DNA of 64,000 bases from Sanderia malayensis (taxonomy: Eukaryota; Cnidaria; Scyphozoa; Semaeostomeae; Pelagiidae): the NCBI GenBank assembly GCA_013076295.1, contig RQOL01000532.1, forward strand, positions 4,154,001-4,218,000, given 5' to 3'. This document shows positions 20,979 through 48,120 of this stretch, one piece after another (position 1 is the first letter of the stretch; each line of letters starts with the position of its first letter). The position numbers and the translations under genes are program-made. The notes beneath the pieces were generated by a model that was not told where the DNA came from, searched no databases, and saw nothing but the letters and a program-made list of their open reading frames with translations.

Positions 20979-22955
20979 TCAGATCGAGATTCGCAGCCAC
21001 GGCTCTGTGAAGATAACATCAGGAACGTCATTACCAAATTTGATTGAAGACACTTGGTAATGCTCGATGATCTCTTGTAGGACATCGCGAGTGATTGCAT
21101 CGTTGTTTCCAAATCTTGCCACGAAGCCTCCGTTAGCTGTTGTATTTACATCAAGATGGTGGACACACGGGCCTCCTTCTGGCGATTTAACAGCAATCGT
21201 GAGCACACCAGTGGGAGACTTGTAAGCTATGTAAGAGCCAGGTGTTGTGCACTGTTCGAAAGAGTCTTCCACCTGCTTGCGCGTCAGTTGGCCTTTATAC
21301 CACGGCAATGCTTCAAGCTGCAAATGATTGTTAAAAACAATTTATCGCCGTATATCAACACTGTACAGCGTATGCGACCACCGGTTACTACCATGCTCTG
21401 TATGACGAGAGCTGTGTGTCATATGACTGAAGGAAGCGAAATCGCCCAGCATTTGTGGTGCAAAACAGAGCATGTCGTGTTCCATACCGGCAACACACAA
21501 CACAACAATACATCTAATAACCAAAGCCCATTACACGTGGAAAATGAGGGGTGCTAATGTGATAAGACAATGTACCGCATTTTACTTGATAAGAACAATG
21601 GTATACTTTGCAAACAGTGTAAGGGCATGCTATCGTGCTATCTATCAAAACAGAAACTTTCTCTCGCAACTTAACGAAGTTGAGTAAATTTCAACAAATC
21701 CAATTTGAAGTAAAAAAATTACAAGTCACATCAATTATGATCATCTCCACGCAAATTTATTTAAAATGGCGACGTCAGTGCCTGAAAGCTCTCTTCATTC
21801 AAAATAAACGCGTAATCTTAATATCATCATAATCATCATAATCATACATCTTGGGGTTTACTGCCAATGCCTGGCATTCTGAATGAACACAAAGTGATTT
21901 CAAGAGGGCTTGCGTGATTCAAATGCAGCGTAAACATACCTGTTCATTTCTCTTTGCCTCCGCGTCCTGCTTGAGTTTTCCTGGTGCGTCGATCATGAAC
22001 GTGTCTTCGACTTCAAAGCGACTCTCCCTGTTGGCGAGACCTCCTTCGAAACCATCATTGGTTCTAGAACCATCCTATAAAAGCAAGCAAGAAGAACAAA
22101 TTACAGGCGGAAAGAGAGGCGGGGAATGGGGGATGAAGAGCAAGAAAGAAGAAAGAAAGAAAGAAAGAAGAAAGAAAGAAAGAAAGAAAGAAGAAAGAAA
22201 GAAGTAGCAAGCAAGCAAGCAAGCAAGCAAGCAAGAAAGAAAGAAGAAAGAAAGAAGGAAAGAGACCAAGCTAAAAGCCACTTACAACATTGCTCATTAA
22301 AATATCTGCACGTAAGAGGTCCTCCTTGCTCTGTCTTCTTTGGGCAATTCTCTCTGACATTGTCAATGTCTCTTCACTGTTATTTTGGTTTTGTCTGAGG
22401 ATAAGATGAAACGATAAGCAAAGAACTTTTCAAATCAAACATTAAGCAATACCCCTCTTTCATGCCTTGCCTCATAACATGAATGAAATGAATGATAGAG
22501 TCTATAAGGGACGACCTTGACTCTCAAAGCGAGGCAAATTTGAGCAACCAAGTTTTCTCCTTTGCACAGCAAAAAAGTGGTCAGAATGTAATGGACATAC
22601 TGAGCAACGGCGAAAAGATTTCAACAGTAACGGTCCTTAGTTGAGCAGATTTCTGATGTTTGCAGTCTCAATAATTGCAATGGGCGAGCAGCGTCAGTTG
22701 TGCCTCTCATCATTCACCTCATTCATCGAGATATACAGTATCCTCTTGTTAGATACCCCCGTCCAATAACGCCACATATACATACAAATTGACAGGTGAA
22801 ACTTACATTCAAGGAGGGAGTAATTATTCACGACACACGAATGCAAGCATCTTACCTGCGCCGGTACACAAATACAGCCAACCCAACCAATGCAATGCAG
22901 CCAACTACTGCCAATGTTGCTGCTATGGCAGTATTCCTAGACTTGTTGTTATTGC
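20979..22955 (-). CDS. hedgling: hedgling exons 37-40: TM helix, cytoplasmic tail and SH2 domain
   Basis: Exons are 22856-22955, 22286-22394, 21940-22074 and 20979-21317 (TGA 20981-20979). Exon 37 encodes the single TM helix ([20 protein letters not shown]), followed by the stop-transfer YRRR. Two exons of charged tail lead to a C-terminal SH2 fold. It opens [17 protein letters not shown], continues with GSYIAYKS where FLVRES is expected, has LTIAVK as beta-C and VHHLDV as beta-D, and ends [13 protein letters not shown]. The FLVR arginine that binds phosphotyrosine is replaced (YIAYKS), so canonical phosphotyrosine binding is unlikely. The protein ends 30 residues after the SH2 core. Confidence 0.87.
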
Positions 22956-25900
22956 CTAAAATCCAAATTAAGTAACTTGAATATAAGAATGGGAATTATA
23001 TCTATAGATACGTAATATCTACACTGACATCACAGTGCTCGATGTACAGAAGTACAGAGCAATAATAGAGTAGAAGCAAGAAAGTAGACTTTCATGCGCA
23101 AGCATGAAACTCGGAGTAACAGAGAACTAAGTCTACTTTCTTGCTTCTACTCTAATAATGGGAATTAGATATATCATATTAGTAGTCATTTGATTCGATT
23201 GCTGCAAAGGTGATTCTATCTATAAATAATATCTATACCTGTTCGTGGCTCCGGGTTAACAGCTGCAACAACAAGAGAAAGAGAGATTAGGGAGCAGAAT
23301 TCAGTCGTCATTAAAAATCAATACAATACAGTGAAATGGTTAACAATTTAGTAAAAATACGAGGGATGACTTTGAAGTGCAATAAAGTTCTTTTGGGGCA
23401 TGTTAATTATCGTCTATAGTTTTAAAAACGTGAGAGTAGCATGAGCATGAAGTAGGATTACCTTTTGAAACTTTTTGGACTTTAATGTTTTCATTTTCAA
23501 GGCCAGACAAAACATTTTTATTCTGTATAACATCCAACGCTTCGTCAGCGCCGAGGGCCTTTCCTGTCTTTGCATCACGGACGACTATTTCAAGATTAAA
23601 GCTAGGAAGCAAAACAATAACAACTGAACTATGTAGTAAAAACAGTGGCAGAAGAAGTAATTTACATTGCAATCTGCTGTATACTGCACATTAAAAAGGA
23701 AACTACAGTGGACTCTCGCTATCTCGAACTCGCAGCGGAAATGAAAATTTGTTCGAAATAGCAGGATAGCGGGCCTAAATTCACCCAAATGGAGAAGGAG
23801 GGGAAATGGCAATCTGTTCGAGATAGCGAGTTGCTCGAGATAACCGAGTAGGAGATAGTGAGATTCGACTGTAATGCAAAATGCTTTACGCAGTGTGATC
23901 TATTTATAATGTACTGAAATGCAGGTGTAATAGGCAACTCAATATAGTGCAGTATACACTTTTTTTTTTAATAAGCAACTAGACTTTGGTCCAGCACTGA
24001 AAGTTGCTTAAAATTTTGGATATTTTAGCCCTCAAAGTTGCTTAAAAGTTGCTTACAATTTTTTGTACCTATAACAGCCTCTCCTGTCCCCAGGGTACCA
24101 CCCCTAAGTTTGTGGGTCAAAATCATCAACTGTAACGCCTACAACATAAGACTTAAGAGACAGTAAGTGTAAACATGTTAGTCAAGAACTTCAACAGCAC
24201 AGTGAACATTCGTGCCCAGTTTTAGCATTCTAAAATAAATGATGTTTGAATTCTTAGTTGCTAACAGTAATTCAATTGAGCCCTCGAGTTGCTTAATGTT
24301 AGGGTCAATCCAGCCCTAGTTGCTTATTGAGCGGTTGCTTATTAAAAAAAAAAAAGTTTCGGGGCATATAATGGCAAATGCTCATGATAACATAAAGGCA
24401 TGTGTACTTTTTTCATGGTATGTATACTTACTCAAGAGCGGGCAAACTGTCTGCAGGTGCCTTGGTGGCAACAAGTTGTCCATTAGATTTACAATCGGTG
24501 GAGCCGTCAAGTGACTTGAGCATGTTACTGCACAGGTAGTCTGGATTCACTGTGATGTTTGCCTGGAGATCTGCGGGGCAGACGAAAACGTACTCGACTT
24601 TGATTTTGTTGTCCGCCAGTTTCTCCGTGTTCGTAATTCTGATTACGCATGCGCGGACGTCAGAGCCGGACGCAACGCTGCGACGCCTCCTTTGGGCAAT
24701 CTGAAAAACGAAAATAGCAATAATTGTCATTGGCCATCGTCTCACAAAACACCACTGAATGACAGTGTATTGTCAAATTGCGCGAATTAAACTCCATGCA
24801 TTTGCGCAAAATAACAATGTAAAACGGAGTGCACGCGAAATAAAAAGCCAACTTACATCAAATTTCCAATTCTGTACTGCTTCATTCATATTCTCTTCCA
24901 CGGTATACTTCATATAATCTTGCCATGGGATCTGTCCATCTTCCAACTGCATCGCCAATTCAAATCTGTTTTTCTTAGCAATGCAAGTTCTATTGCCTGA
25001 AGGACTATTTGGCAATGGTAAGCAGAAGTTGTCCAAGCCACAAGGATTCGTATTGCAAACCGATTTGAATAGTTGGCAATTGCGTCCCATTCTCTCCGGT
25101 GGACAGGAACACCAATACGACCCTTTGATGTTATTGCACTTACCCTTCTGACAATCAACTGTAGAGGAAAAGACTTGCATATGACTATTTCAATCTCTAC
25201 GGATAATTTGTTAAAATCAAGTTAACCGCCCAGTTCGACTAAGGGACCACATTTTTATCCATTAAAGAAAGAACAACATGGTCTGATCAAGGAGGATAAT
25301 CCTATTCAAAGAGGGACAATATAACTTAATCACAAATCATTTGATGTAAACGAAACAATGTTTAATAAAAAAACGGAAGATTCAAGGAGGCAGAAAGAGG
25401 GAAATTAATGGTCAAAGGGGGGAGGGACATAAAACCTACCTGCGCTTCGCGTGCATTCATTGATGTCATTCTTACACGTTGTGCCATCCCAGCCTCCTTT
25501 GCAAGAGCAGATAAATCCATTCTTGGTGATGTCACATTTACCTTTGTTTGCACAAGGGTTGGGTTGGCAAGCAGTGACGTTGCAAACTTTGGATTTCTCA
25601 TACTTGGTCACTGAAATTTTCTTTGCTGTCAGACCGTTTAAGAGTTTCTGAAATGATAAAAACAACGCGTTGAATCGCTACACAATGAAACAGGCAAACT
25701 CGGCTTGTTTACATTCACCAGTTCTGCACTCCCTTTCTATAGCCCTAAACGGAATCTGGCTATCTGAAGTTTTGCAGGCATTGGCAGGCAGCATTATGTG
25801 TGGAGAAGCAGAGAAATACGTGCCCAACATGATACAGCAGGTTGTAAAACAGGCAAAATACAATATGAATACCTGAAACGATGCAGGGATGAAGAAGTGG

Positions 25901-28900
25901 CATGTTTTCCCCTTGTTTGGCTTGTTCAGGTTCACTCGCAATTTCAACACGGATTCCTTTTCTAAAAATCGAAATCAAACAAGTACAATATAAATAGCAA
26001 CAATCGCAAACATTTTCCAACTAATATTGGTGAATATTTTCTGATGTTACTGCTACAGTAAAAGAACCCAGATAAAAACAACTGAATTAGAAGTCTCCAG
26101 GCTGAATATATCAACTGTATTTAAACAATGGATCGCATGTGAAATATCACTGCCTGACTCTTATACGCGGGAAATTACTGCACAAAATTGCTGTATGCAA
26201 CATTGAATAACAAAAGGAGCGTGCTCACCAAACACTTTTAGGACAGCAACATTCGATCGTGTTTTACCAACAAGATTGTAGGCCTCGCAGAAATATTGTC
26301 CCTCGTCGTTCTGGATGAGTTCAGGCAACTTTAGCGTGTTGCTTCTGAAACCAACTCCTTGTTGATACACCTCTCCGTTCTTGTACCATCTGTAGTAAGG
26401 ACGTGGATCTGCAATCGCATCGCATTCGAACACTGCAGTTCCACCGATTTCAGCTGAGCTGGATTCTGGGTGCTTTGTAAACTTCGGCGTTTCTAAAAAA
26501 GAAAGATCATACAAAGTCCAGAATTGATTTGAAATTATCTTCCACTGTTGAACGAGAACTACATCCATCTTTCATTCCCTGAACTTGGAAGAAAACTCTT
26601 GTTAAACACCCATTAGGATAGCCTGTTTCACATGTGCTTGCAACCCCCACCCCAAAGGCCCTGTGACCCAATAATACCACCAACCATGTCGATCCAATTA
26701 AGGCTATGGGTACCATACACCTGTCTCTATTTTTGCAGCAAAAATGTTGGACGTACATTCAATTGCATTTAATAGTATGCTGCAGTTGTAAAAATCCCTT
26801 CACGATTTGTTAACTCCAGATGATTAACAAATCCTTCAACAGATGCATTATTACGTCACCAGGATACTATGACAGGCTTGAGTGACCATAATGTACAAAC
26901 ATAAAGAGCAATGATGAAAATAGAACTTGAACCAGCAAATTGTTCACCTTGAACGATCAATTCTGCATTGGTCGACTGCATTGTTCCTCCGCCATTTGTC
27001 GCCAAGCACGCATATCTACCCGCGTCGTTCTTCGTCACAGCTGCGAATTCAAGTAATCCCGAGGAAGACCACGCGGCAATGCTGTTACCATCTTTGAGCC
27101 AACGGTACAATACAGCCTCGTTTCCAACTGCTTCACACTCAAGCTGGGTGAAATTAAAGAGCGTATAAGCACAGTATAGAAGTCCATAGCATAATTTGGT
27201 TTAATACAGCATAGTGGATAATGTATCATGGCGTAGCATAGTGTAAGTTGGTATAGCGTAGCATGACCTAGCAAGGTGAAGTACATTATGGCACATTGCG
27301 TTGTAGTGTGGCATAGTTACGTGTAATGCGGCGTAAAATAACATGGTATAAGCAAAGTCTGCAAACAAAGTCTGCAAAACTAACCTTGAAAGGCTTTCCA
27401 ACGAGTCTCTTGAAGCTTCCCTCCGGCATTTTATTGAAAGAGCATAGAGTGGCAGCAGACAATTCCCCTGCCTCTGTAACTCGGAATGACATGGAATTAC
27501 AGCGCATTCTGTAGAAAAAACAACAAGAATCATTCACATTAAAGAATGCGTAGGTAAGTCCATATATAGATTGTGTAACAGGGTGTATAAATGTTACTTA
27601 CATGTTATGAACTTTAACTACGGCTCTCGAAGACATGGGCGGAGTGCCTCGATCGTATGCCTCTACTATGACGTCACGTCTTACCGTGCCATGGTTATCA
27701 ACCTGTAACAAAGCAAACGGTGATAGATAAATTCAAGAATGAAGACACGGTTGAATGAAATAAAAACACCGCTGAAGAGTCTAAGCAACATTAAGCAATG
27801 CCCGGGGGTTAATGCAATACAAAGAGTGGAAAACACAAGACAAACAGAGACAAGATTAAAGAGGTGAGCAGGAATCAAATCGAACTAAAAAAAACTTAGA
27901 CCAGCACAATACTAGAATGTCAAAGGTCAATTTGAATGGGTCGGGGGTCAAAAGATGATGCCTTCCGTATGATAAAGACAGTAACGAATGACGTACTCTT
28001 TTCGTGGTATTCATTCGGTATTTAACAATTCCACCAGGGCCTAAATCTGGGTCAGTTGCACTCAAGTTCAGTAATTTCTTTGCCCCAATAGATCTGAAAT
28101 TGTAATTGAGAACGTTTTGCTTGAATTTCGGCGCATTGTCATTGATGTCGATAACATGAATGAAAACGTCCGCCAGGGACTGGTTGTTTGCTTGTTCAGC
28201 GCCACCTTCACCTGAAAATTCAAATGATGATTGTTAGCATCAGCAACTAATGAAGTAAATGAATCGGGGTCAAATGTCATGAACCAGAGGCTGACTTAGA
28301 GCATAGGTCATAAGCTACATTACACGATTATTCAGAGGCTACTCCATGTTAAAGCTCGGGACTAAACTTCGTCACAGGCCAAGACTCCAATCATGGTACA
28401 GGACTGGTCGGATGCTAAATTTTTTCACAGGTCGAGGCTCAAATAGAATAACGACTTGGGACTGAAGCTGTATTACATCACAGTTCAGGGGCCAAATACC
28501 GTGCCTCGATTCAACGTCCCCTCAAATAAATGCCCCACATGATGTGCTGGAATTAACAAAACGCCTTGGCGCTTAATCGAAGAAATAACGCCATAAATCA
28601 GACTTTAGGGGGGTAAACTGTGCCAGAGAATCACTTACCAACATTAGAATCATTCAGCGGCTTCAGACCACAATCGATATTTCCACCTCTTACTTTCAGA
28701 TGAATAAAGTCCGAGAACTCTCTATCGACAATTCCAGCTACCATGACAGAACCTGGAAGGAAATTGAGAGGAATATTGCAAATCATGTGATGAACAGAGA
28801 AAACATTCCAACAATAACATAACACACCCCCAACTGCAAACCATACGGAGACCCGGTATTTTAAACAACCCTTACAAGTAAACTAAACTTGAGCTCGCTT

Positions 28901-31900
28901 CAACTTCTAAACAGGTCGGACTATTTTTATTTGAAATCTATTCTACATTGATTTCCAATTCCTTAATAAATTCTTCAAAGATAGGCCCTCTTCGCTACAA
29001 TAAGTAACGATACGTTGTCAAGCAAAAAACAGCCAGAGTTCTATTTACCTGTTCTTGGATCTACGGTGAACACTCCTTGGTCATCGCCGGCCTTGATAGC
29101 GTACACTAATTCAGCATTCCGACCAACATCATCATCAGTGGCGGTTACATTGACAACGATAGTACCACGTGGGTCGTTCTCTTTGATTCGTGCAGTGTAG
29201 ACCTTTGGCGAGAAGATGGGACAGTTGTCATCCTCGTCTCCTATGTTTATTGTCAGCTGGGTAGTTTTGGACAACGGTACAGATCCGTGATCTTTTGCTG
29301 TCACCTCCACGGCGTATTGGGCCTTCTCTTCTCGATCTAGAGGCTTCAATGTTGTCACCTGAAATAGGGAACAAATGCATATCGTAAATCCTCGAAGGCG
29401 TATTTGCAAAAACGAAATTTTAGTCTGATTATTGTTCAATATTAAGCAAAATAAAAGCTATACGATGCAGTCAGTTAATAAAGTTATTGGTTTAAACTTG
29501 CTGCTATTTGCAATACATTCACTAAACAACTTCAATGTCTCGATACTTGGGCTCAATATCCTTGCAAATGATTATCAAGATGGGGGCTTATTCGAGGGGA
29601 GAGCTTATTCGAGGATTTACGGTAGTAGATATGATACTGCAATGTCCGTGTTCTGTACTTTTTGCATCGATCACTGTGTGCAGGTAAGGACAGCATTTAT
29701 TGTGTGATAGCTTAAACATATATAGTAAAAGATCGTATGGCAAAGAGTCTGTATGAAGAGGGCTCCGGGACAAAACTCAGTATCACAAAGAATTCTTCTT
29801 TTCTTATCACATGCTTTGTACTATAACTACTTGGTACTATCGATTACTTATCAATACTTAGAACGCTCTGTTCTTTTACATCACTGATACAGCGATGCCA
29901 CGTGAACACATATCGACAACATTAGTTTCACTTAACACAAGTGCAGGTTATACCGAGGCTGTACTTGCTAGCATGTATAAGACTTGAGGACGTTCGATAA
30001 GGTTGCCTGTGTACGTACCTCCCCTGTGGCTGCATTAATGGTAAAGGCATCGTTCGTTTTCATGCTGTATGCAATACGTCCGTTCTCGCCTGTATCAGCA
30101 TCAGTTGCTTTCACAGTAACAACATGGGTACCTGCCATCTTGTTCTCCTTCACCATGCCAGTCAGCGTCTGGTTGTCAAAAACCGGAGCATTATCGTTGA
30201 TGTCAGCGATGTTTATTATGGCATTTACAATTGTTGCTTGCGATGGGACGCCGTGATCCTTTGCTTCAACCTGAAGCGTATACTTGGCCACAAGTTCTCG
30301 GTCCAACTTGTTTTCCAGTGACACAACGCCTGGTAAGTGGAACGATAAACGTTAATGAAATAAAAAATGTCAAATGTGCAAGTTGCTTAGTAGAAGAAGG
30401 CAACGGGCCATCTATAACTAAGGATGCTTTCGCAAAAACATTCTGTGAAGAGGATAATCAGTTTAATCCCAAAATTTCTCAAGCCACTCCAAAGAACCTC
30501 TATATAGCAGACTCTATAAGGTTCTATACGTTATCCGTTATACACACGTTTTACGTTTTACGAAAACTGCCTCCAAAAAAGGTCCGACCATTGATGCACC
30601 ACTACCAATTTACACTAATGCAGAAGGTAATATACTTTGTGTTAAAGGGCCTTGTAGCTACAGTTCAAAATAAGCATAGCAAACCTGTTGTATTGTCGAT
30701 TTTGAAGACATTTCCAACGTTTCCACCTGTGATTGCGTATCCGATGACTGCATTTGACCCTGTATCCAGATCACTCGCCAGCAAGCCGAGAACCACCGCG
30801 CCAACACTCGCGCCTTCAGACATGCTCTCGCTATCGTAGCTCTTCGCGAAAACTGGAGCATTGTCGTTAACATCAATCACAGTTATTGACAATGTAAGCG
30901 GCTGTGAAGTAAGTCGAGGCTGACCTCTGTCCCGAGCAACGATCGTTATGGTGTGAGAAGACACAGATTCTCGGTCAAGTTCCACTGCCGTTGAGATTTT
31001 GCCCGTCAATGATTCGATGGCGAATTACTACTGCTAGGCCCATTTTCGATCGAGTATTCAATCTGTGCGTTCACGCCGGCGTCTTGATCTGTCGCACTCG
31101 CCGTGTAGAACGACTGGACGAGCTTATTCTCGCTAACCGACACACTCGCCGAGGATAAAGCAAAGTACGGAGCGTTGTCGTTCACATCAGTGACGCTGAT
31201 CGTTACTGTCGTTTGTGCCGAAAGCTGTGGCGAGCCGCCGTCGCTAGCTCTGACACCGACAAAGTAGACACTTTTCGTTTCTCGGTCCAACCCAACAGTC
31301 GTTCTAATTTGGCCGGATTGCGAATCAATTGAGAAGAATGCTGTGCTGTTTAACAGCGAATACGTCAACGCTCCGAATGAATCCTTGTCTGTAGCCACAA
31401 CGGTAAGAACTGCTGAACTAACAGCCGATCCTTCCGATACATTCACATTGTATGCTTTGTCAAACACAGGACTATTGTCGTTCAAATTTCCGATCTCTAT
31501 TTCGACGTCGGTGGACGATTGGAATTTTCCGTCCGACACAATGGCTGTGAACTTGTAGCTTTTTGTTGCTTCGTAATCCAATGCTGATGCCGTGAAGATT
31601 TGGCCTGTTGTGGCATTGATGGAGAATGCGGTTGCAGGCGCCGTTGTGTCAAGCTGATATGTTATTTGGGAATTCGTACCTTCATCTGCGTCAGTGGCAC
31701 TAACGATAAGCACTGGGGTTCCTGTGGCTACATTTTCATCGACAGTTCCTGAATTAAAAGAAAAACAGAAATATAGAAAAGATACTGACAAATAGCAAAA
31801 AAAGTAAAAAAGAAGTAATTGCATCTGTGATAGGAGTAGCAATAAGATGTTACAAAATGGAAGCACACAAGGCACAAGAAGTAGATGAAGTTCCAAGAGA

Positions 31901-37900: not shown

Positions 37901-40900
37901 CAGTGGCAGCAACCTAAATGAGACATTAGAGCCATCAATTGAGCCAACTAGTAACAGTAGTACTAACAGCTGTATACATTATGCTATTCAATCAAGGTGT
38001 CTGGTATCATATGTCTCACAAAGGGGACTTGAAAAACGTCCCTAATGGACAAAGAAACAATTGAATCAGCCAAACTAGTAATAGTGGCTTTATAACAAGG
38101 TGCCTTTTGGTGAGCCCGCTAAAAACGTCAAAGAAAAATAAAAAGCACCCTTGGTTGGTCACCAATTGGTCTGTTGGAGAAACATAAATGTTTCATCCAG
38201 CATGCAAAATAGGCGATCAATAATTACAACAGCATGCGATACCTTGGTAACATGTGTATTCGTATTGGCATTTTCCAATACAGTGGCCCAGTAGGTTCCC
38301 ATGGTGAAAACAGGTGAATTGTCATTGACATCCCGAACTGAGATGACGTATCGGGTTGTCGCTGACAGTGATGGTTGTCCCAAATCGGCGATTTTAATCC
38401 GTAAACTGTACGATGCTCTGAAATGAAAAACAATTCCGAAAATAGAATAGAGAATATTTAATCGAGAACAGAGAAAGAATCATTTGAGCCAAAACATGCA
38501 ACCATTTTGCTGTTATCCAGATAACCTAACCGTAAATAAACCACAAGCGAAAAACGGTGGCCTAACGAGCTGTGGTTATCCATAGGTGTGGAAACATGCA
38601 ACCCAGAAAGATCAATACTACTTTTCTAATTAATCTTCAAATTTAATGAATACGGGCCAAAATCAATATGGTTCAGGAATGGCCTCACACGACTCCGTCA
38701 TGTCCTTGTATGACTGTATTGCTTGGCTAGTTGTTATTTGTATGCGAATGAGGCAATAGTGTGAGAGTCAGAGAGCACAAAACGCGTCTTACATTGATTC
38801 CCTGTCGATTACACCCGCAGTCGTAATGGCACACGTCGATGCGTCCATTGAGAATGCATTGTTTGTATTGCCATCAGTAATGCTGCAGCGAATGTTGGCA
38901 TTTATACCTGAAACAATGAATGCATTTGATGAAACATTGCTGATCTAGACAAAATTGCAGAGATGAGTTAAGAAATAATGTGATCAGAAATTCACACGAA
39001 AAGCTGTCATGGTACTTTTTCATAAGACATGTCATGATACTATGACACAGCCAAAGCAGCCTAAAACTTCCACTAACCCTAAACTTCCAGTAACATTCCA
39101 AAAGTGCTCATGAAATAACTATCTGTTTACCGATAAACACGCAGAAATGCTTATTCGAGGATTTACGGTAATGTGATTGGCATACATTATAAAAACCGCG
39201 TGTCACACACTCACCAATATCGCGATCTGCTGTTTGTACTGTACCAACGTGTGTGCCACGGGCAACATTCTCAGTGACCATGAAGGTCTTTTGTCCCTGA
39301 AACGTAGGGGCATTGTCGTTGATATCATCGACAGAGACATCTAATGGGACACAGATCTTCTGGATTGGTTGGCCAGCATCACTGGCACACACTGTCAGCG
39401 TGAATTTAGCGACGCTTTCTCTGTCCAATGCCCGGGCAGTTGTTACCAAACCGGAAACCGAGTTGATGCTGAAATCTCCTCCGGTATTTCCAGACTCAAT
39501 CGTGTAAGCAATTTGACTGTTTGTACCAAAATCAACATCTGTTAAAATGTGAAAAAAATGAAAGCAATAAGAATGCACCGCAGCAATAGTGAATTATGGC
39601 ATTGAATTGCCATTGCATCTACTCCTGTACAATAAAACAGCGATAGCTATGACGACTGTTGAAAAATAATCAGTGGCATTCCTATTTAGAGGACTTAAAA
39701 TTTAGAGAAAATCAAAACAGATGTGAAAGAATGAAGTCAAAACATGCTTGTTGAACAGATAAAAACTTGTTCTATGAAGCAGTCTGAAAGACCACGTGTT
39801 TAGTTCGCTGCATCAGTAAATTCGTGACATAAAAGAAGGTGTCTACATCGAGATTGTACTGAAAATAAAAGAAACTAAAAAGGTGATACTATTTACATTG
39901 CTAATGAACAAACCTGTAGCAGAGACTGTTACAACAACAGTCCCCTGGGACTGGTTCTCTAGTACAGTTGCACTGTACCTACTGACTGGGAATGCGGGTG
40001 CGTTATCATTGATATCCAGTGCGGTTACAGTTACGGTGGTCCGGTCTTTCAGTGGTGGATCGGAACAATCTTTTACATCAACAATCAACAAGTAGACCTC
40101 CTTCAGTTCCCGGTCAATCGGCTTGCTGGTCGTTATCAAACCAGTAGTTGGGTTGATATTAAAGTAGTGTTTATCAGATGATACAATTTCGTATTGCAGA
40201 GTACACTGCAATGTCGTGTCCGGATCTGTAGCTGTCAGGGTTTTCACCACTCGGCCCACAGTATTGCCTTCATTGATGCTCACACTGCATCCACCAAACA
40301 GGGCACAGTCTCCGGTAAAGGTGGGCGGTTCATTAATGTTTATTATATTGATTACCAGTACTGCTACATCGGTCTTCACCGGGCTGCCAGTATCTTGAAC
40401 AAGGATTTGCAAATCGTACTTCTTCTGGCGCTGATCGTAATCTAAGTACCGGGCAACTCGGAGCACTCCTGTGTCCCGATCAAGTGTGAAGTCGTCTTTT
40501 CCTGTTCCGGAACTTAGCGAGTAGCGTAGTTTTCCGTTGCTACCTGCATCAGCGTCGGTGGCTCTTACGGTGCCAATATAGCTGTTTGGAGAAGAATCTT
40601 CTCTCACTCGGAAAGAGTAGGGATCACCGATGAAACTCGGAGCATTGTCGTTGAGATCACCAACTGTAACAGTGAGAAGTGTGCGACCTTTGTGGCATTT
40701 CAAATTGGCATCCTGTGCAACGATTACCAGAGAGTATTTGGCCACGCTTTCTCTGTTCAATTGTCTAGTCGTGGTTACTTTACCGGTGTTTTGATTGATT
40801 GTAAAATGGCCAGCACCATTGCCATACTTGATGGAATAGAGAAAGCTGGAAAATAAAGAGACTACGGATAGAATAATGCTCAATATCTATAAATAGAACG

Positions 40901-43900
40901 TGGTATAGGTGGAGTAAAAAAGTCTGACAACAATTTTCATCGCTACAGGCCGGCTGGAATCAATCACAAATGTATCTTCAAGTAAGTATGTATGCATGTA
41001 AATGTATGTATGCATCTACACGAAGGAGAAAGGAGTCAAGAGACTAAACTCTTTATCTCGACAAGCCTGTTTCGTGGTTTCCCATGTAGCTATGTATGTA
41101 TGTATGTATGTATGTATGTATGTATGTATGTATGTATGTATGTATGTATGTATGTGTGTGTCTGTGTGTATGTATGTATGTATGTATGTATGTATGTATA
41201 TATGTGTGTTTGTATATACAGTCGAATCTCGAACTCGGTTATCTCGAACAACTCGCTATCTCGAACAGATTCCCGTTTCCCTCGTTCTCTAGTTGGGTGA
41301 ATTTAGTCCGGATATCTCGAACTTCTGCCATGTCGAACAAACGTTCATTTCCCCTGCGAGTTCGAGATAGCAAGAGTCCACTATATGTATGAAACTCACG
41401 TGTATCCAGTAAGGTGTGAAGTGATCGTGGCAACATGTTGTCCAGCAGCCTGGTTTTCCAAAACTGTTTCTTTGTATTCATCACTGGTAAACAGAGAATC
41501 CCATATATTTAGCAAAAAACTGTTCTTATCTTCCTGTCCTTGCACTGAGATATACAGCAACTGCATAGTGGAAAAAAATAGTCAAAACATAGATTCATGG
41601 TATTAAAAAGGTGAACTGAAATATGGCAGATTATATTCTGGTTCCCTTCAAGATCGATAATATCGGGGGTATTCATTAGAGACACAACAAACGTTTTTTT
41701 ACCTTTGTTGAAGACAGTGTGACAGAAAGAGCGCGTGGTGATATGTCATTCTTGTTCTTCTGTGTGTCAGAATCAGGATCCAAGGGTCCGGGATTTTTAT
41801 TAACCAACGAAGTGTACAAATAGCTCCGACCTGGCCAAAAAAAGACAACTTGAGTATTACCAATCCAAATATACAGCTACCAATTAGCTACCCTATCCTA
41901 CGTAAAGCGAATGACTTATATCAAGTTTCGGTATATCAGGGGTGCAGTATGCTACGCTCCAGCAATAAACAATTGTATATCTTGTGACTTGTGCTAACGA
42001 ATGGGACAAAGTTATCTATTCCTGGTTGCCTATAACCATGCTAGGTGGTTATGTGATGCGAAAACAATAGAAAGGATCAAATGAAAGGGACAGGTCAATA
42101 TACTTCATACCTTCCTTGTCAACCACTTCAATGGTCACGTTTACAGTATTACCGGAAAAGCTTCCTCTGAAATATTTGAACGAGCCTCCATCCACGGCTG
42201 TCTCTGCACTTTCACATTTGCTCAATTGCGCCCCCTCTGTAATAATAACAGAAAATAGGCTCAAAAGTTGGAAATACAAACCGATAGAGAGAGCAAAGTG
42301 GGTGAATGTCGAATAAAAGTAACAAGTAAAACTACAGTGTAATGTAGTGAGATTTGGCAGGAGTAAAAAACATCGATTGGGCGTTAATGAATTAAGCATT
42401 GTATAACGCAACTTTAATAGCTCAAACAGACATTATACAAAATTTAAGCTATTTTATGTATGGAACAATTAAAAGCATATGAGATGGATGGCGGTGCCAG
42501 GCCTGAAAAATGGGAGGGGCCAATGGTGAAATTCAAAGCGCCACAACATTATCTACCCGCACTTTATATTTTCTCATGGAATCTAAATTAGGAAAAGCGA
42601 GGAACACGTCCCCCAGTCTCCCCCGGGGTGCCGCCACTGTATCAAATGTATATCTGTTGCTTACAGACGGGGGTTGGCTGTATCGAGGTTCCACTGTCAA
42701 ACAAAGTAGGAATGGTCGGGCCAAACCTACCGTCACACGATGTTGTACTCATTTGATCGACAAAGTCTGACAGATCACGGAATCCGCTCAGTTTGAAAAC
42801 ATGCTCACTGTCGGGATCACTTGCAACGTCATTTAGCTCAGATGTCCTGAGGTTCGAACCAACACCAATAACGAACATGTTGATGCCTGCCTGCTTGACT
42901 TGCTGGGCTGCAGAATACACTGATGTCCCATGATTTGAGCGACCGTCTGTCAGAAGAATTCCAATCTAAAAGAAGAAAGACACGACACAGCTTTAGTATT
43001 TGAATATTATATCGCAACCTTTAGTGCCGTAACACCTGGATGTTGACTAAAATCATATAAGTTACACATACAAGAGGCGTTTAAAAAACAATTTTGAGTC
43101 AATCTAATTTGGAACACAGAAATAGAATCAATAATAAACCAAAAATAGAATAAACCTAAATAGAAACCTAAAGCCTAGAATAAATAAAATATCTAAAATG
43201 TCTAGTTAAAATTATTTATTTAAAATCCCTCATACGTATAACTGCTGGGAATAAGGTTGAATTCAACAGTACTTAGAGTATGGTCTTTCATTTTCTTGCC
43301 TCTACTCCCTCTCACAGCAGTCAAAATACTTCTTAGCAGAGCAAAACGAATTCTTGTGCGTAAATGTTTTAACACTTCTGCGTATTTCTCATTTCTGTGT
43401 TCAGCAATCATACTGGCTAGACGTTTATGTACAGCTTCACATTGCGGCCCCATTCCACCTGATGTCGTATATACCAAAGGAACAAATGCACCCTTTTCAA
43501 CCTGTAAAACTCGATCATTGTAAGATTTCATTTTCTCCTTCTCATGACTAGAGTAAATTTCTACAAGTGTCTTTTCGCCGTTACTTACATTATTTGGGTT
43601 GGCTATTCGGACATCGAAGAAAGTCACTTTTTGAGCTGAGTGGATACCTTTGGCTGATACATCAAGACGCGCATTTTCTGCTCTGTTGGTCCCATTAGCT
43701 AGTGGTACTGCGTCACTTACGGGGAGAAGTAGCGGCTCTATTTTGACATCGCTGGCTACCTCTTTCATGATGTTTGCTTCTGTGTCGCGAACTGCGTTGT
43801 GTCTCATATGCACGTATCCACCCAGCTTACAATCTAGTGTATGGTCAACCGAGTTCCTCTTTCCACATGCGCAGAATCTTGGCATGTCTGGAATATTGTT

Positions 43901-46900
43901 CCCGTATCTGAGTCTGATAGCATCTCGGAACTCCCTTTTGTTCAATGCATAACCATACTTTTTGAGAGGAAGTGCTGACAGCCAGGCTGATGCACCTTTC
44001 TCCGTCGCTGCTTTGACATATCGAGCTTGTTGATCCGTCAAACTCTCAAGAATATCCTGCTGCTCATCTTTAAGGTATAGATTGCGGTTGGTAACCATGT
44101 TTTCCTTCGCTTGCTTAACTTTGTCCCAATCAATTGTTGTGATGTCTTGAGTTTGCTCGCATATTTTATTTTTCAGTTCTTTTGTAATAGCCACGGATGA
44201 CTGAAACTCTCTGTCAGCTGTTTCTTGAGGGTCTCTGATACCAAGACCACCCATACGAAGCGGGAGTGCAATCAGCCTTCGCTCAATGTCAGATATATCT
44301 CTGCCAAGTATTGCAGGTATGAGTTTTGTGCTGATGGCCTTTTCAAGCGGTTCAAATAGTTCAGACGTATCTGGAACAGTACGTTGAAGATATGTCCATC
44401 TATGACAAAGACCTTTTGTAAAGGCTGATAATGCGGCTTGGGGTTCTTCAACAGCAAATTCAGCTAGCTTCTCCACATCCTGCACCCACTTCTCTACCCT
44501 TGATTGAACAAAGCTGACCTTGAAATCATTACTTCCCAGCACTGCCCCTAGATGTCGTTGTCCATCCGTTGTTATTTTGATATCAATATTCTTGAAGATG
44601 TCTTTCGCTCTCTCTAGATCTTCCTCTCTTTTAAGGATAAGAACAGTCTTGGCTGCCTTGGGGAAGTATCCGTATTTAGGGCCATTGGTTGAAAGGCGTT
44701 AGAGCCGTTTAAAACAAAAAGACACTTATTTCTCAAATGCAAAGGAGAGCACATACGGCAGCAAAAGTACCTATTTCAAAGCACTAATTACTTTATCAAG
44801 CTTTTAAACACTTGATAAAAGGGCCATTAACAAAACTTCGACTGAAAACAATTAATTTACCAATTATGTATCATTTTACTTGAAAATTTAAAATAAATTG
44901 GAGCTTTATTCGCTCACTCTCTCTATTTCACTTATTGTATAAACATTATGGTCTAATCTTAGCAAGTGGTCTGTAACATATATTCAATGATTAAAAATAT
45001 CTTGGAGCAAACCTGCACTCAGAATGATAGGAAAGAGTAGATAAGCAATCTCAGCTCACATACCTTGGGGATTGACTTATCAGATCGCATTCCATAATTA
45101 GTGTTGAAAATGAAACTCTTCATGTGTAACAAGGCATCCCCTGTAGCTGTCATACTTCCTTCATACTTCATTCGGTCAATGGCTGACTTAATGGCTGATT
45201 TTGTTGAGTAACTGTTCAAGTAGAATTCCTTGTAGACCTGAAAGCAAACAAAATCATGTCACAGCAATACAAAAGCAACTGGTGGTGGGGCTATATCCTG
45301 ACAAGGGTAATTACACTAGATCAAATGAATCAATCCACCATAGACCAAACAAAATTACTTTTGGGTCAAAAAGTATCCTATCAATAGGACCACAGATATG
45401 GAATGCTTTGCCCAAAGAAATTAAATTACCTGAAAATATTCAAACATTTAAGGGACTGATAAAACAATATTCCTTTGCAGAATACAACAGTGAATGTTTA
45501 TGTAACAATGAAAATGTGTACATACTGAGTAAGAGTAGGAGATGAGGCCAATAGCTGTTTGGTCAGTACCAATGTTGTAAAAATCTACCAGATCTTTCAA
45601 AAACCTCTGCACTGTCTGAAAATTAGTGTAACCAACACTGCCAGAGGTATCAATGACAAATGCCATATCCAACTTTGTTTGGCAAACTTGAAAGTAGGTT
45701 CATGACATTAGATGTATTAAAACAAAATATTTCAACTGTAGCTCTATTTACCCCCACCTCTCTTCAATATGCCCCTCGAGTCATAAGCTTTGGGAATATG
45801 CCCCACCCCTCTCTCTCCCTCTACCCTTTAATTTTGCATACACGAAGCAACATAAAATCAAATGCAAGTATTCAGTGAGCAAAAATACAGTGAAGCCACA
45901 TTAATAAAATCCATACATTAATGCATTCCCCTGTAATCACATTATTTTTTAACATCTCCTATGTATTTATAATAAAATTTTCTTAAGAGTTGACAATTCT
46001 ATCATGTGCCCAAAGCAACCAATCCATCCTTAAGTATTTTTAATCGTAAACTACAAAATAGCTTATTCATCATAGTAGTTTTTCTAAATTAGCCCCCCTC
46101 AAAAATTTTTTAAATAAGATAAGCACGCTAGAATTCGGAACATAGCCATAAAGAAATTGAAACATACCATCTGGGATAACACTAACTCTGATGAAATCCC
46201 TATTTTGATAATAAATCCAGTCAAACCCAGATTTGGCCGCCAAACCACAAAGCTGTCCAAGCTTATTCCTGTCCCCATCTGAAACCTGGATTTTCAAAGT
46301 GCGCCCTGAAAAGAAAAAATGGCATTTGTTAGCTAAATATGTTGTCTCTTGTGGGCCAGTGAATACCCTCTGTCTCTATTCCAAAGATAACTCTTTTGGA
46401 CCAAAAATGTACCTTGTTGGCCAAATTATAATCATATGTCCCTATCGTGTGTCTTTGCTAAATCATGTCCATCTGATGAGAAAAACCTAACTGTTCTTCT
46501 TGTGGCATTGTTAATCATTTCCCTCTTAAGCAGATGCAGAAGGGTTATTAAAGGATAATGCACCACCCAAAGACAACCACAGCAGCCAGACCACAGGCAC
46601 AAACACAAACCTGCAACTGTGGTGGATTAATTTCAAAATGCAATAACAACGCCATAACATCACCCGGAAAGAACAAGAACCTCTCCAAATGACAACAAAA
46701 CAGCCATCCGATCTGGTGCTAAATATAAAATGTAAACAGATACAGAGCCACAATGAGTTGACCTTGCCATAGAATAGGGACTTATTCTGTGACCTTACCC
46801 TAGCCTACTACACGTTACGTGACAACGCTCTTCTCTTCATTCAAAATGCAAAAGGGTCTATGAAGCAATGGGCAAAGGCTTGCCCCAGTTGTTTCCAGAA

Positions 46901-48120
46901 ATCTGTGAACTTAATTAATGCTACTCATTTGATTTGACGAGGACAAAGAGAAAAGAAAACAGATCATAGCGTTGGAGAGAAGACAGATCAGGGTGTTAGA
47001 TTTGAAGCCATGATCTGTTTTCTTTTTGTTATAAGATCGCCACAAGTGTGAAAACAGAAACACCTTATTACTAATTTATAAAGCGTTTAATATTTTGCAA
47101 GCATGCATGAGGAGTAATCACCCTTTCAGATTTCTGGAAAAAGCTCGGGCAAGATTTTGCCTACTGTTTCGTAGACTCTTTCTTCATTTTGAACAAAGGG
47201 GACAGGACGGTTTTCACGTAGGCTGACGAAACCTTTGCCCTGACAAGTCTAAAAAATCCATTCCGTTGTTGAAAGCAAATTCGTTGCCATGCGTCTGGCT
47301 TTTCATTCTTCGATTACTTCCTTCCCCGTTTCTATTACTTCCTCTGCCCGTCCACGAAGCGTGTGAAAAATTTTCTGCAACATGCATATGATTCGTGCGT
47401 GATTCCATATTTCGCAACGTGTTGCGAAATTTGCTTTTGTTGAAGTTACGACGAGTGAACACAAGCGACAATATCGCAGAGAGACATGCCGTATTAACGA
47501 CAATAAGAACAATAAAATCATGACCATCATTGTTAGATCAGTTCAACCAACACCCACCACCTCCATCACCTCCGTTATCCCAACCATCGTAATTAACGTC
47601 ATTATCGCCGCATATCATATCGCCTAAAAGCAATTACATCGTAGTTGCTGCCTGTTACCAACGCGAGTGCGGAAGATGCAGGAAAATAAACAAAAATTAT
47701 TGTCCTACCTTCATAATGAAGTGAGAGCATATCATTTTTGTCGACGACATCTGTCCATGCTTTAATTACTCTCAATTTCACACCGCTACCCCAGTTGCTT
47801 TGCGCTCTGCTCGCCAAAACATCGAGCTTGCTTTTCGCTCGTGACGTCATGTATTTGTTGTCTTCGTTTGCGGCGAAATCGATTTGCGGGTTGTCGTTTC
47901 GTACGAGAACCTTGAGGAACCTTGCTGTTCCGCGTTTGATGACATCTCGAATGCTTCTACACTGCAGGACTTCGCTTTGACTTGCGTCTGTCGTACTCTT
48001 CGTTGGGTAGAACTGTCCGTAACTAAATGTCGATGGGGCTTGGCAGTGCACACGGATGTTTGTCAAACACAAATACGTGACAGCAATGAGAAAAATGTTC
48101 GCATAATGTTTGTGGGCCAT
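20979..48120 (-). CDS. hedgling: Hedgling: giant transmembrane Hedge-vWA-cadherin-Ig-EGF-SH2 protein
   Basis: Forty coding exons run from the ATG at 48120 to the TGA at 20981-20979. Every exon junction is phase-compatible, and the total is about 3529 aa once a 1-nt gap in exon 22 is allowed for. Order: signal peptide, Hedgehog-type N-terminal signal domain (about aa 60-182), vWA (188-372), a linker, about 21 cadherin repeats (490-2730), two Ig domains, EGF repeats, a membrane-proximal region with a tetra-arginine site, one TM helix (about 3311-3331) and a cytoplasmic tail ending in an SH2 domain. This is the architecture that defines Hedgling, a cell-surface protein described from the sponge Amphimedon and the anemone Nematostella and missing from Bilateria. 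No Hog/intein autoprocessing domain follows the Hedge domain, so it is not a true Hedgehog. A role in adhesion or juxtacrine signalling is inferred. Exon coordinates are given in the block entries. Confidence 0.93.
22141..22262. repeat. Purine microsatellite (GAAA/GAAG)n with (GCAA)n in a hedgling intron
   Basis: A run of GAAA/GAAG units is interrupted by a (GCAA)n block at about 22205-22232. It gives long artefactual open frames on both strands. It lies in the intron between hedgling exons 38 and 39. Confidence 0.9.
23067..23153. repeat. Perfect 24-bp inverted repeat (hairpin) in a hedgling intron
   Basis: The arm at 23067-23090 (starts AGAGTAGAAGCAAGAAAG) is an exact reverse complement of 23130-23153. 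The 39-nt loop contains a smaller hairpin (TCATGC / GCATGA). It lies between hedgling exons 36 and 37, so the intron RNA could form a strong stem, or it may be a degraded foldback element. Confidence 0.85.
23239..24700 (-). CDS. hedgling: hedgling exons 34-36: membrane-proximal region with tetra-arginine site
   Basis: Exons are 24432-24700, 23462-23601 and a 24-nt exon at 23239-23262. Exon 34 opens with [14 protein letters not shown]. The run of four arginines before Ser is a strong candidate proprotein-convertase (furin-type) site on the extracellular side. The surrounding alpha/beta-like sequence, with strands such as [11 protein letters not shown] and KVEYVFVCP, might be a SEA-like or other juxtamembrane fold, but this is not established. 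The tiny exon 36 codes for AVNPEPRTG across its borders, and both its splice sites agree in phase with its neighbours. Confidence 0.82.
23704..23873. mobile_element. pogo/Tigger-like MITE, copy 1
   Basis: The element spans 23706-23871 and is flanked by TA on both sides. The termini CAGTGGACTCTC and (inverted) CAGTCGAATCTC, plus internal TATCTCGAA words, match the copy at 41219-41383 in the opposite orientation. The TA duplication and CAGT start suggest a Tc1/mariner (pogo-type) MITE. It lies in the hedgling intron between exons 34 and 35. Confidence 0.7.
23960..24355. mobile_element. Inverted-repeat element with homopolymer caps
   Basis: The left arm is a T-run followed by AATAAGCAACT (23960-23980). 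The right arm is GGTTGCTTATT followed by an A-run (24333-24355). The word GTTGCTTA recurs several times inside. It is about 396 bp, has no coding frame, and lies in a hedgling intron next to the pogo-like MITE. Its class is unknown. Confidence 0.55.
24857..25647 (-). CDS. hedgling: hedgling exons 32-33: EGF-like repeats
   Basis: Exons are 25440-25647 and 24857-25158. The first EGF has the spacing C-x4-PC-x6-C followed by [12 protein letters not shown]. It leads into a calcium-binding type opening NDINEC, whose second half ([21 protein letters not shown]) lies in the next exon. A third, irregular Cys-rich segment follows ([19 protein letters not shown]). The rest of exon 33 (from about [17 protein letters not shown]) starts the membrane-proximal region. 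Confidence 0.88.
25873..27508 (-). CDS. hedgling: hedgling exons 28-31: two immunoglobulin domains and linker
   Basis: Exons are 27385-27508, 26948-27143, 26229-26492 and 25873-25961. Ig domain 1 spans exons 28-29, with paired Cys in KLECEAV and GRYACLATN, Trp in YRWLKDG and the DAGRYAC motif. Ig domain 2 fills exon 30, with [18 protein letters not shown] and [12 protein letters not shown]. Both are I-set-like. Exon 31 is a short linker ([17 protein letters not shown]) that I cannot place in a family. The position after the cadherins and before the EGFs fits Hedgling. Confidence 0.88.
27602..40845 (-). CDS. hedgling: hedgling exons 9-27: cadherin repeat array
   Basis: Exons: 39914-40845, 39215-39538, 38793-38907, 38243-38417, 37811-37913, 37104-37418, 36070-36686, 35389-35684, 34681-34921, 34258-34464, 33836-34031, 33286-33477, 32001-32927, 30685-31748, 30019-30329, 29049-29358, 28639-28752, 27997-28211, 27602-27702. 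I count 21 DxNDNxP-type calcium motifs at repeat ends, including DLNDNAP, DVNDNSP, DINDNAP, DKNDNAP and diverged INEPP and DEDDNCP, along with matching LDRE and ATDxDxG motifs. This means a long calcium-rigidified extracellular rod. The intron after 32001 is GC-AG and fully open. Exon 22 (30685-31748) contains a 1-nt frame break near 31024. The last exon of the block has no clear calcium motif. Confidence 0.92.
29382..29623. mobile_element. TA-flanked MITE (CCGTAAATCCTCG family), copy in hedgling intron
   Basis: Its ends read (AT)CGTAAATCCTCG and CGAGGATTTACGG(TA), a terminal inverted repeat. The interior is nearly the same as 62095-62369 (shared words such as GGTTTAAACTTGCTGCTA and CTCGATACTTGGGCTCAATA). 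It lies between hedgling exons 23 and 24. No transposase is present. Short open frames inside it are artefacts of the repeat. Confidence 0.8.
31749..32000 (-). other. hedgling: GC-AG intron of hedgling, 252 nt and open in frame
   Basis: The donor reads AAAG|GCAAGT, with GC instead of GT but the rest of the donor strong. The acceptor is TTTTAATTCAG. Length is 84 codons exactly, with no stop in the gene's reading frame. Retention would insert a very hydrophobic stretch (for example [20 protein letters not shown]) between two cadherin repeats. Removing it restores a normal repeat junction (FKG|TVDEN), so splicing is the default reading. Confidence 0.75.
33624..33776. mobile_element. Related MITE with CCGTAATGCTTCGATTAAAC ends
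   Basis: The element is bounded by ACCGTAATGCTTCG (from about 33631) and its inverted match CGAAGCATTACGGT (to about 33776), with several GGGGCGTTTAAAAGAG units inside. It resembles the CCGTAAATCCTCG family in its ends and in its GC-rich subterminal words. It is intronic in hedgling, between exons 19 and 20. Confidence 0.65.
41092..41214. repeat. (TGTA)n microsatellite in a hedgling intron
   Basis: About 30 copies of a TATG tetranucleotide with a short TGTGTGTCTGTG interruption. It yields meaningless Met-Tyr-Val-Cys open frames in three phases. It abuts the left end of the pogo-like MITE at 41219. Confidence 0.95.
41217..41385. mobile_element. pogo/Tigger-like MITE, copy 2 (inverted relative to copy 1)
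   Basis: The element spans 41219-41383 between TA dinucleotides. It starts CAGTCGAATCTC and ends GAGTCCACTA. The interior shares GTTATCTCGA, GGGTGAATTTAG and GCGAGTTCGAGATAGC with the copy at 23706-23871 when that copy is reverse-complemented. It lies in a hedgling intron, just before exon 8 in plus-strand order. Confidence 0.7.
41400..42236 (-). CDS. hedgling: hedgling exons 6-8: linker after vWA and start of cadherin repeat 1
   Basis: Exons are 42111-42236, 41703-41830 and 41400-41560. The first two encode a beta-rich segment with motifs such as [15 protein letters not shown] and [10 protein letters not shown] that I cannot assign to a named domain. It may be the beta-sandwich commonly attached to vWA domains. 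Exon 8 begins the first cadherin repeat with the typical strand [18 protein letters not shown]. The joins are phases 1, 0 and 2. Confidence 0.85.
42731..45686 (-). CDS. hedgling: hedgling exons 3-5: von Willebrand factor A domain
   Basis: Exons are 45526-45686, 45064-45237 and 42731-42965. Together they encode a complete vWA fold. Beta-1 with the MIDAS motif DTSGS lies in [16 protein letters not shown], the MIDAS Thr is in [10 protein letters not shown], and the later MIDAS Asp is in [10 protein letters not shown], followed by [11 protein letters not shown]. All three metal-coordinating segments are present, so divalent-cation-dependent ligand binding is plausible. The domain sits directly after the Hedge domain, as in known Hedglings. 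The intron between exons 4 and 5 holds a truncated reverse-transcriptase element, and the intron between exons 3 and 4 holds a second, opposite-strand retrotransposon fragment. Confidence 0.92.
43200..44703 (-). mobile_element. 5'-truncated non-LTR-type retroelement with RT C-terminus and endonuclease-like domain
   Basis: An open frame runs on the minus strand from just after a TAA at about 44703 to a stop at 43220, about 490 codons without interruption. It begins inside a reverse transcriptase ([29 protein letters not shown]) and continues through the thumb ([28 protein letters not shown]). It then shows a Cys/His cluster ([15 protein letters not shown]) followed by RHN, ARLDV and FFDVRI, which resemble the CCHC plus restriction-like endonuclease tail of R2-type elements. 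The clade is an inference. An A-rich, AATAAA-like tail lies at about 43100-43200. The element inserted in sense orientation in the hedgling intron between the two later vWA exons. The N-terminal RT part and its catalytic motif are missing, so it is a dead, truncated copy. Confidence 0.8.
45265..45480 (+). mobile_element. LINE ORF2 C-terminal fragment
   Basis: The plus-strand frame contains [13 protein letters not shown], then [20 protein letters not shown] and [10 protein letters not shown]. This is the typical C-terminal tail of CR1/Jockey-like LINE polymerase proteins (a GPxxWNxLPxxIK motif). It is only a short remnant, antisense to hedgling, in the intron between exons 3 and 4. Confidence 0.7.
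46168..48120 (-). CDS. hedgling: hedgling exons 1-2: signal peptide and Hedge domain
   Basis: Exons are 47709-48120 and 46168-46305. The start is the ATG at 48120; the open frame extends 14 codons upstream but without another ATG. Residues 1-26 form a signal peptide (hydrophobic [10 protein letters not shown] core). The Hedge domain follows, with recognisable Hedgehog landmarks: [14 protein letters not shown] (SHH RCKDKLNALA), [12 protein letters not shown] (GVKLRVTEGWDE), SLHYEGR and KSGFDWIYY (EAGFDWVYY). The exon 1/2 junction falls inside LHYEG|R. Compared with SHH zinc-site residues, the first His (LHYEG) is kept. The Asp seven residues on is Lys, the Glu of YYES is Gln (YYQN), and the last His is Arg (FIRVSV). 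The zinc centre is therefore probably lost. Confidence 0.92.

Follow-up and report, generated by a model that had tools for sequence, protein, structure and literature searches.

A hedgling gene in the scyphozoan Sanderia malayensis, with tyrosine at the FLVR arginine position of its SH2 domain

Introduction

In the window, by which is meant the whole 64,000 nucleotide stretch of Sanderia malayensis DNA that was analysed, an initial annotation proposed a complete hedgling gene. The question raised by this locus is whether such a gene is present there as a single, intact unit and what the domains at its two ends, a Hedge domain and an SH2 domain, may be doing. Hedgling is also reported from choanoflagellates (PMC4054682), a link to planar polarity has been suggested for the hedgling of Nematostella (PMC12549020), and the protein domains named in a figure legend of PMC7853314 include HH_Nterm, vWA, cadherin, and SH2.

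Gene structure and domain content

The exon model was made by dynamic programming, after which the exons were settled manually by reading their junctions, independently of the initial annotation. It arrives at the same ends and the same exon number, with 40 exons on the minus strand from 48120 to 20979 (Table 1), and gives a protein of 3526 aa. Of the 39 introns, 38 are GT-AG and one is GC-AG; they range from 93 to 2098 bp (median 355) and fall in phases 0, 1, and 2 in 14, 19, and 6 cases. False exons in the first gene models, among them 47623-47558 and 34559-34542, were replaced. A non-bilaterian and probably cnidarian genome had been deduced from the letters alone, which agrees with the scyphozoan source.

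Table 1. Features of the S. malayensis hedgling locus, listed 5' to 3' along the minus strand, with positions in the window.
Feature	Positions	Strand	Remarks
Exon 1	47709-48120	-	Start codon; beginning resembles a signal peptide by eye; Hedge domain as far as HYE; phase-1 donor
Exon 2	46168-46305	-	Rest of Hedge domain, ends SVIPD; phase-1 donor at the Hedge/vWA boundary
Exons 3-5	42731-45686	-	von Willebrand A domain (45686-45526, 45237-45064, 42965-42731)
Retroelement-like ORF	43220-44698	-	492 aa, inside intron 4, outside the gene; a piece is a false exon in the public model
Exons 6-8	41400-42236	-	Conserved post-vWA region up to cadherin repeat 1
Exons 8-26	27997-41560	-	21 cadherin repeats, aa 482-2681
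Frame break, 1 nt	31024-31025	-	Within exon 22 (cadherin repeat 18); end of the public gene model
Degenerate cadherin remnant			aa 2699-2759, exons 26-27, after repeat 21
Exons 28-30	26229-27508	-	Two immunoglobulin domains
Exons 32-33	24857-25647	-	EGF-like repeats (Pfam match below cut-off)
RRRR motif	24680-24691	-	Basic, furin-like, before the juxtamembrane region
Exon 37	22856-22955	-	Transmembrane segment, aa about 3306-3332 (hydropathy)
Exons 38-39	21940-22394	-	Cytoplasmic linker with conserved FM motif (TFMIDAP)
Exon 40	20979-21317	-	SH2 domain, C-terminal extension (VPDVIF), stop codon
Tyr3446 codon	21222-21224	-	FLVR arginine (beta-B5) position of SH2

The proposed order of domains, from Hedge and vWA through cadherins, Ig, EGF, and transmembrane segment to SH2, is present on the one strand by the exon model, by Pfam, by a profile made from the protein's own repeats, and, for the transmembrane segment, by hydropathy. 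Pfam was run on aa 1-1217, on aa 2411-3414, and on exon 40, with aa 1218-2410 left out. Where the annotation had placed the Hedge domain, at 46168-48120, HH_signal matches with 106.2 bits (cut-off 22.1, E-value 1.8e-30). Directly behind it follows the vWA match (aa 190-366, 159 bits, 1.6e-46), and the junction DVCQT between the two is identical in all 11 aligned rows that cover it. The matches to Cadherin (1.1e-141), Ig_3 (9.1e-26), and SH2 (5.6e-06, 26.8 bits, cut-off 21) complete the set; that to EGF_CA (2.1e-05) reaches 25.1 bits and is below the cut-off of 27. The domain matches are far beyond chance. With the profile from the protein's own repeats, run over the whole protein, 21 cadherin repeats score strongly and two remnant pieces weakly, and the DxNDN-type motif is likewise counted 21 times.

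The vWA domain carries DTSGS, T, and TDG, which are taken to be the residues of a MIDAS-type motif, and the basic RRRR stretch is presumably a furin-like site with a corresponding function. A strict R-X-K/R-R precedes the transmembrane segment in seven of the 12 rows covering the site, the exceptions being P0016, P0017, and three Hydra rows. The hydropathy scan of the protein flagged the transmembrane segment only, and no signal peptide. In the cytoplasmic tail the FM motif (21940-22074) is kept in all 12 aligned rows that reach it, including the Hydra models that have no SH2 domain.

The retroelement-like ORF of intron 4 has the same orientation as hedgling and belongs to a repeat family with 87 scored matches in the genome, itself included, from 273 candidates. 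Some copies carry stops; the best other near-full-length copy is 50% identical, and partial ones are up to 98% identical. No Pfam match was found at E 0.01 for this ORF or for three other long ORFs of the window. Intron 8 contains a simple four-base repeat (41019-41255) that reads as repeated YIHT. On the plus strand, the open frames 11378-12799 (473 aa) and 16317-17726 (469 aa) are of low complexity by eye and have no Pfam match at E 0.01; they are possibly exons of a neighbouring gene.

By description (PMC2362128), Nv200640 of Nematostella vectensis is like the Sanderia gene in having a two-exon Hedge domain, vWA, 21 cadherins, two Ig and two EGF domains, a transmembrane segment, and SH2, in a protein of 3592 aa as against 3526 aa. 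Since the relatives described below and this Nematostella gene share its architecture, the Sanderia gene is an ordinary and expected cnidarian hedgling, of a family and architecture already known. Judged from its domain make-up, the locus is almost certainly hedgling, and the reading of it as a complete hedgling gene, in the sense of that architecture, is supported. The explanation as a whole, in which this identity weighs most, is held to be very likely.

Relatives and their tree

Protein searches found 11 proteins that combine HH_signal, vWA, and cadherins. Those that can be named are P0001 (Sanderia), P0017 (Actinia tenebrosa), P0023 (Actinostola, partial), P0024 (Acropora muricata), P0026 (Montipora, ending before the Ig part), and P0014 (Hydra vulgaris); the remainder are P0005, P0010, P0016, P0018, and P0019. 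Where database names are given they are of the kind 'dachsous-like', 'Fat 4-like', or 'Hedgehog protein', and in no case hedgling. From Hydra there are two more models, P0020 and P0021, which begin within the vWA domain and have no Hedge, P0020 being on a contig that differs in length from that of P0014; they are possibly paralogues or partial models. All three Hydra models align over the ectodomain, P0014 with both Hedge and vWA, and unlike Sanderia they end after the FM motif without an SH2 domain.

The searches score only proteins that share exact words within length limits, and in one of them the best 7985 candidates were scored and matches with E up to 1e-50 listed. Among the matches listed, the combination of HH_signal, VWA, and cadherin occurs only in proteins labelled cnidarian or without a label, and no protein labelled as sponge or choanoflagellate has the hedgling architecture; neither the Nematostella nor the Amphimedon hedgling appears among them by name. 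The remaining matches comprise collagens, cadherins of the Fat type and of other kinds, bacterial proteins with cadherin domains, and further multidomain proteins. A search with the C-terminal part of P0010 as query brought up no additional hedgling.

Between 3443 and 3461 residues align to each of P0005, P0010, P0018, and P0019, with 37-42% identity. The full-length alignment and the tree were made with relatives of the same architecture, none of which is published under the name hedgling. The tree has 13 rows, with the SH2 columns excluded, SH-aLRT as its only support measure in place of bootstraps, and an assumed root. It has two sides, one (SH-aLRT 100) made up of Actinia, Actinostola, Acropora, Montipora, P0018, and P0019, and a second that takes in Sanderia and the three Hydra rows together with P0005, P0010, and P0016. 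By this tree the second side would be medusozoan, P0005, P0010, and P0016 being placed there by the quick tree. Long branches and an uneven letter make-up in nine rows were flagged, and the inner fork that joins P0005 with Hydra is weak (SH-aLRT 18).

An SH2 domain without the FLVR arginine

Exon 40 reads PGSYIAYKS where an SH2 domain normally has G-x-F-L-V-R, and residue 3446, at the arginine position, is tyrosine. Tyrosine is found there in all four SH2-bearing hedglings of the medusozoan side (Sanderia, P0005, P0010, and P0016) and arginine in all five of the anthozoan side (P0018 and P0019, together with the named P0017, P0023, and P0024, which differ in this from Sanderia). The three Hydra models (P0014, P0020, P0021) lack the domain altogether, and P0026 ends before it. 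As a control, the other SH2 matches in the Sanderia genome were inspected. The list holds at least 50, which are matches to exons and not genes; one is hedgling itself, three stop short of the site, and the 46 that cover it all have arginine (46/46), with two pairs among these identical or nearly so.

All but three of the more than 120 human SH2 domains keep the FLVR arginine, mutation of which lowers affinity about 1000-fold, and SH2 domains that bind without using it exist (PMC7530234). The human exceptions, in RIN2, TYK2, and SH2D5, resemble Sanderia in that the arginine is replaced, but the replacement is histidine or tryptophan and not the tyrosine of hedgling (PMC7530234). Unlike these three, the FLVR-less SH2 domain of Sanderia ends an adhesion-type membrane protein. 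The change at this residue makes it fairly likely that the SH2 domain on the medusozoan branch is not dependent on phosphotyrosine.

The structure was predicted with AlphaFold from exon 40. With eight relatives added (nine rows), the best model has a mean pLDDT of 88.8 and a pTM of 0.83, the five models ranging from 88.8 to 60.3; from the single sequence the confidence is low (pLDDT 49.2). When the predicted domain was compared with the PDB, the best 50 of 848 matches (E up to 10) all contained SH2, with query TM scores of 0.61-0.75. In prediction, then, Sanderia exon 40 would keep the SH2 fold.

It could be that the medusozoan hedgling SH2 is simply decaying, a process that in Hydra would have gone on to its complete loss. 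The Sanderia domain does have the lowest score (26.9 bits) of the 50 SH2 matches listed for its genome, that of P0016 falls under the Pfam cut-off (13.4 bits against 21), which also fits decay, and in all three Hydra models the protein ends ahead of the domain. Decay is nonetheless doubtful, given that the same residue, tyrosine, stands at the site in four of four cases, that the fold is predicted to be kept in Sanderia, and that Sanderia, P0005, and P0010, though not P0016, have retained the extension behind the domain (PD-V/I-V/I). On the medusozoan side the mean identity is low, at 31% in SH2 and 24% in the cytoplasmic linker, and in the anthozoan set 35% and 30%.

That the domain of the Sanderia branch still binds phosphotyrosine, by way of other basic residues, is unlikely. 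The alpha-A2 arginine, a position assigned from an alignment with SYK, is kept in Sanderia, and the existence of SH2 domains that bind without the FLVR arginine gives such a mode a precedent. The alpha-A2 arginine is missing as well, though, from P0005, P0010, and P0016, and the cost in affinity of losing the FLVR arginine also argues against it. The alpha-A2 arginine is also missing in three of the five anthozoan domains (P0017, P0023, and P0024), where the site is thus not fully canonical either.

The preferred reading, of an SH2 domain independent of phosphotyrosine, belongs to a wider proposal that is tentative. An arginine to tyrosine change at the FLVR position on the medusozoan stem may have cut hedgling off from phosphotyrosine signalling. 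In jellyfish the domain would then have been retained for a contact that does without phosphotyrosine, and in Hydra it would in the end have been lost, while the hedgling of anthozoans would still be a cadherin-type receptor that reads phosphotyrosine; the intron at D|VCQT treated below may, in the same proposal, be a relic of a shared exon cassette. The confidence in this was lowered slightly because of the three anthozoan domains without the alpha-A2 arginine. The ancestral state of the SH2 site is deduced from the anthozoans and the assumed root, because no sponge or choanoflagellate protein of this architecture was among the matches. Within the literature searched, the loss of the FLVR arginine in the hedgling SH2 domain is apparently undescribed; this applies to open-access papers that use the name 'hedgling', none of which also mentions SH2, and papers using other names would escape such a search, as does PMC2362128, where the Nematostella SH2 domain is described but the name is absent.

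The Hedge domain and Hedgehog

In the genome sequence searched (184,004,477 bases in 918 contigs, presumably a filtered set), only two HH_signal loci were found, hedgling and Hedgehog. The canonical Hedgehog gene (L008, C405:1490001-1500000, minus strand) has at least three exons and encodes HH_signal (160 bits) and Hint (196 bits). There is no Hint module in hedgling; two matches to Hint were found in the genome, neither of them on the hedgling contig. The second of these (L009, C817:489450-490097, plus strand) is similar by eye to the Hint module of Hedgehog, and no HH_signal match was found on its contig; Nematostella is described as having Hint genes with no Hedge domain (PMC2362128).

The Hedge domains of the two genes differ at the zinc-ligand positions, which are assumed here to be those of Shh. 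All three (His, Asp, His) are kept in Sanderia Hedgehog, whereas in hedgling the first histidine is kept, the aspartate is lysine, and the second histidine is arginine. Across the hedglings the first histidine is kept in 10 of the 10 that cover it and the second in 6 of 11, and the aspartate column is not aspartate in any of the 11 that cover it (Sanderia and ten relatives, P0001 not being recounted). These changes agree with the statement in PMC6027127 that hedgling is without a complete peptidase motif.

The Hedge domain is encoded in two exons, with a phase-1 intron of 1403 bp at HYE|G, and is followed by a second phase-1 intron, of 481 bp, at D|VCQT. In the Nematostella gene it is also in two exons, separated by a 600-bp intron (PMC2362128), and the statement in PMC8052667 of a single large exon does not hold for these two genes. 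The first intron of Sanderia Hedgehog is in phase 0 at YMTR|R, and the second, in phase 1, lies in the alignment one codon before that of hedgling. In place and phase the two Hedgehog introns presumably match the classical SHH pattern. Phase-1 introns at the borders of extracellular domains are common. That two such introns nearly coincide in Hedgehog and hedgling is suggestive and not evidence of common descent; as an argument it is weak, because they are one codon apart, introns of this kind are common, and the internal introns differ. The two genes share HH_signal; Hint and the full zinc-ligand triad are present in Hedgehog and not in hedgling, and the internal intron of Hedgehog has a different position and a different phase.

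The frame break in exon 22 and the public gene model

The exons had also been described as consistent in phase, which is the case across all 39 introns and not inside exon 22, where the frame changes between 31025 and 31024. The suggestion that the locus may be intact must be qualified, since exon 22 carries this 1-nt break. Behind it, 1230 codons are open in one frame to the final stop, while the two alternative frames contain 59 and 90 stops, and the domains 3' of it align with the relatives. Because of these open and aligning codons, the break is more likely to stem from an error in the assembly or from a very recent mutation than to mark an old pseudogene. A single base lost or gained in about 10.6 kb is a common kind of error in long-read assemblies. 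For the Sanderia assembly, corrected PacBio reads were used (PMC7305137).

It is quite improbable that the break is real and marks a pseudogene of recent origin or, in the animal sequenced, a null allele. It does sit in the middle of a coding exon, away from splice sites, and there is no second copy of the region in the Sanderia assembly; set against this, every intron has kept its GT-AG or GC-AG ends, no premature stop has arisen in the 1230 codons, and the downstream domains still align with relatives.

The protein P0001 (eukprot gene6323-7047_t) is identical to the present model at 2300 of 2302 aligned residues. Since parts of intron 1 and of the retroelement-like ORF recur in it, translated and without a single difference, it is taken to be the public model of the locus. 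P0001 stops at the exon 22 break, starts further upstream than 48120, and includes false exons. The start at 48120 was kept because the relatives start nearby and the protein then begins like a signal peptide by eye. The model given here is better than the public one.

The claim of one gene, and not of separate Hedge-vWA and cadherin genes, is borne out by P0005, P0010, P0018, and P0019, which lie on contigs of 10.8-14.6 kb, from their size probably transcripts, and each run in one open frame from Hedge through to the C-terminus. That two such neighbouring genes were wrongly joined, as the 2.1-kb intron with its retroelement-like ORF between exons 4 and 5 and a public model that is one truncated gene with false exons might suggest, is hardly credible and is rejected because that intron interrupts the vWA domain itself, the parts of which fit one Pfam match of 174 positions, and because the relatives encode all domains in a single frame, the same arrangement also being described for Nematostella.

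Conclusions

Sanderia hedgling is probably an adhesion receptor. It would be a very long one at the cell surface, presumably stiffened by calcium, with the 21 cadherin repeats as a rod and the Hedge-vWA pair as its far tip. Ligand binding would most likely be by the vWA domain, as the metal-site residues are present. The Hedge part would serve for binding, and would be neither a secreted morphogen nor a zinc peptidase, given that the gene has no Hint module and that the zinc-ligand positions are changed. Near the membrane the outer part may be clipped at the basic RRRR motif, and the gene as a whole would be expressed. At the other end, with tyrosine in place of the arginine that grips phosphotyrosine, the SH2 domain most likely either makes a phosphotyrosine-independent contact or is decaying. 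If the split between tyrosine in four of four and arginine in five of five hedglings holds in a wider sample, it would constitute a natural experiment on an adhesion receptor leaving tyrosine-kinase signalling.
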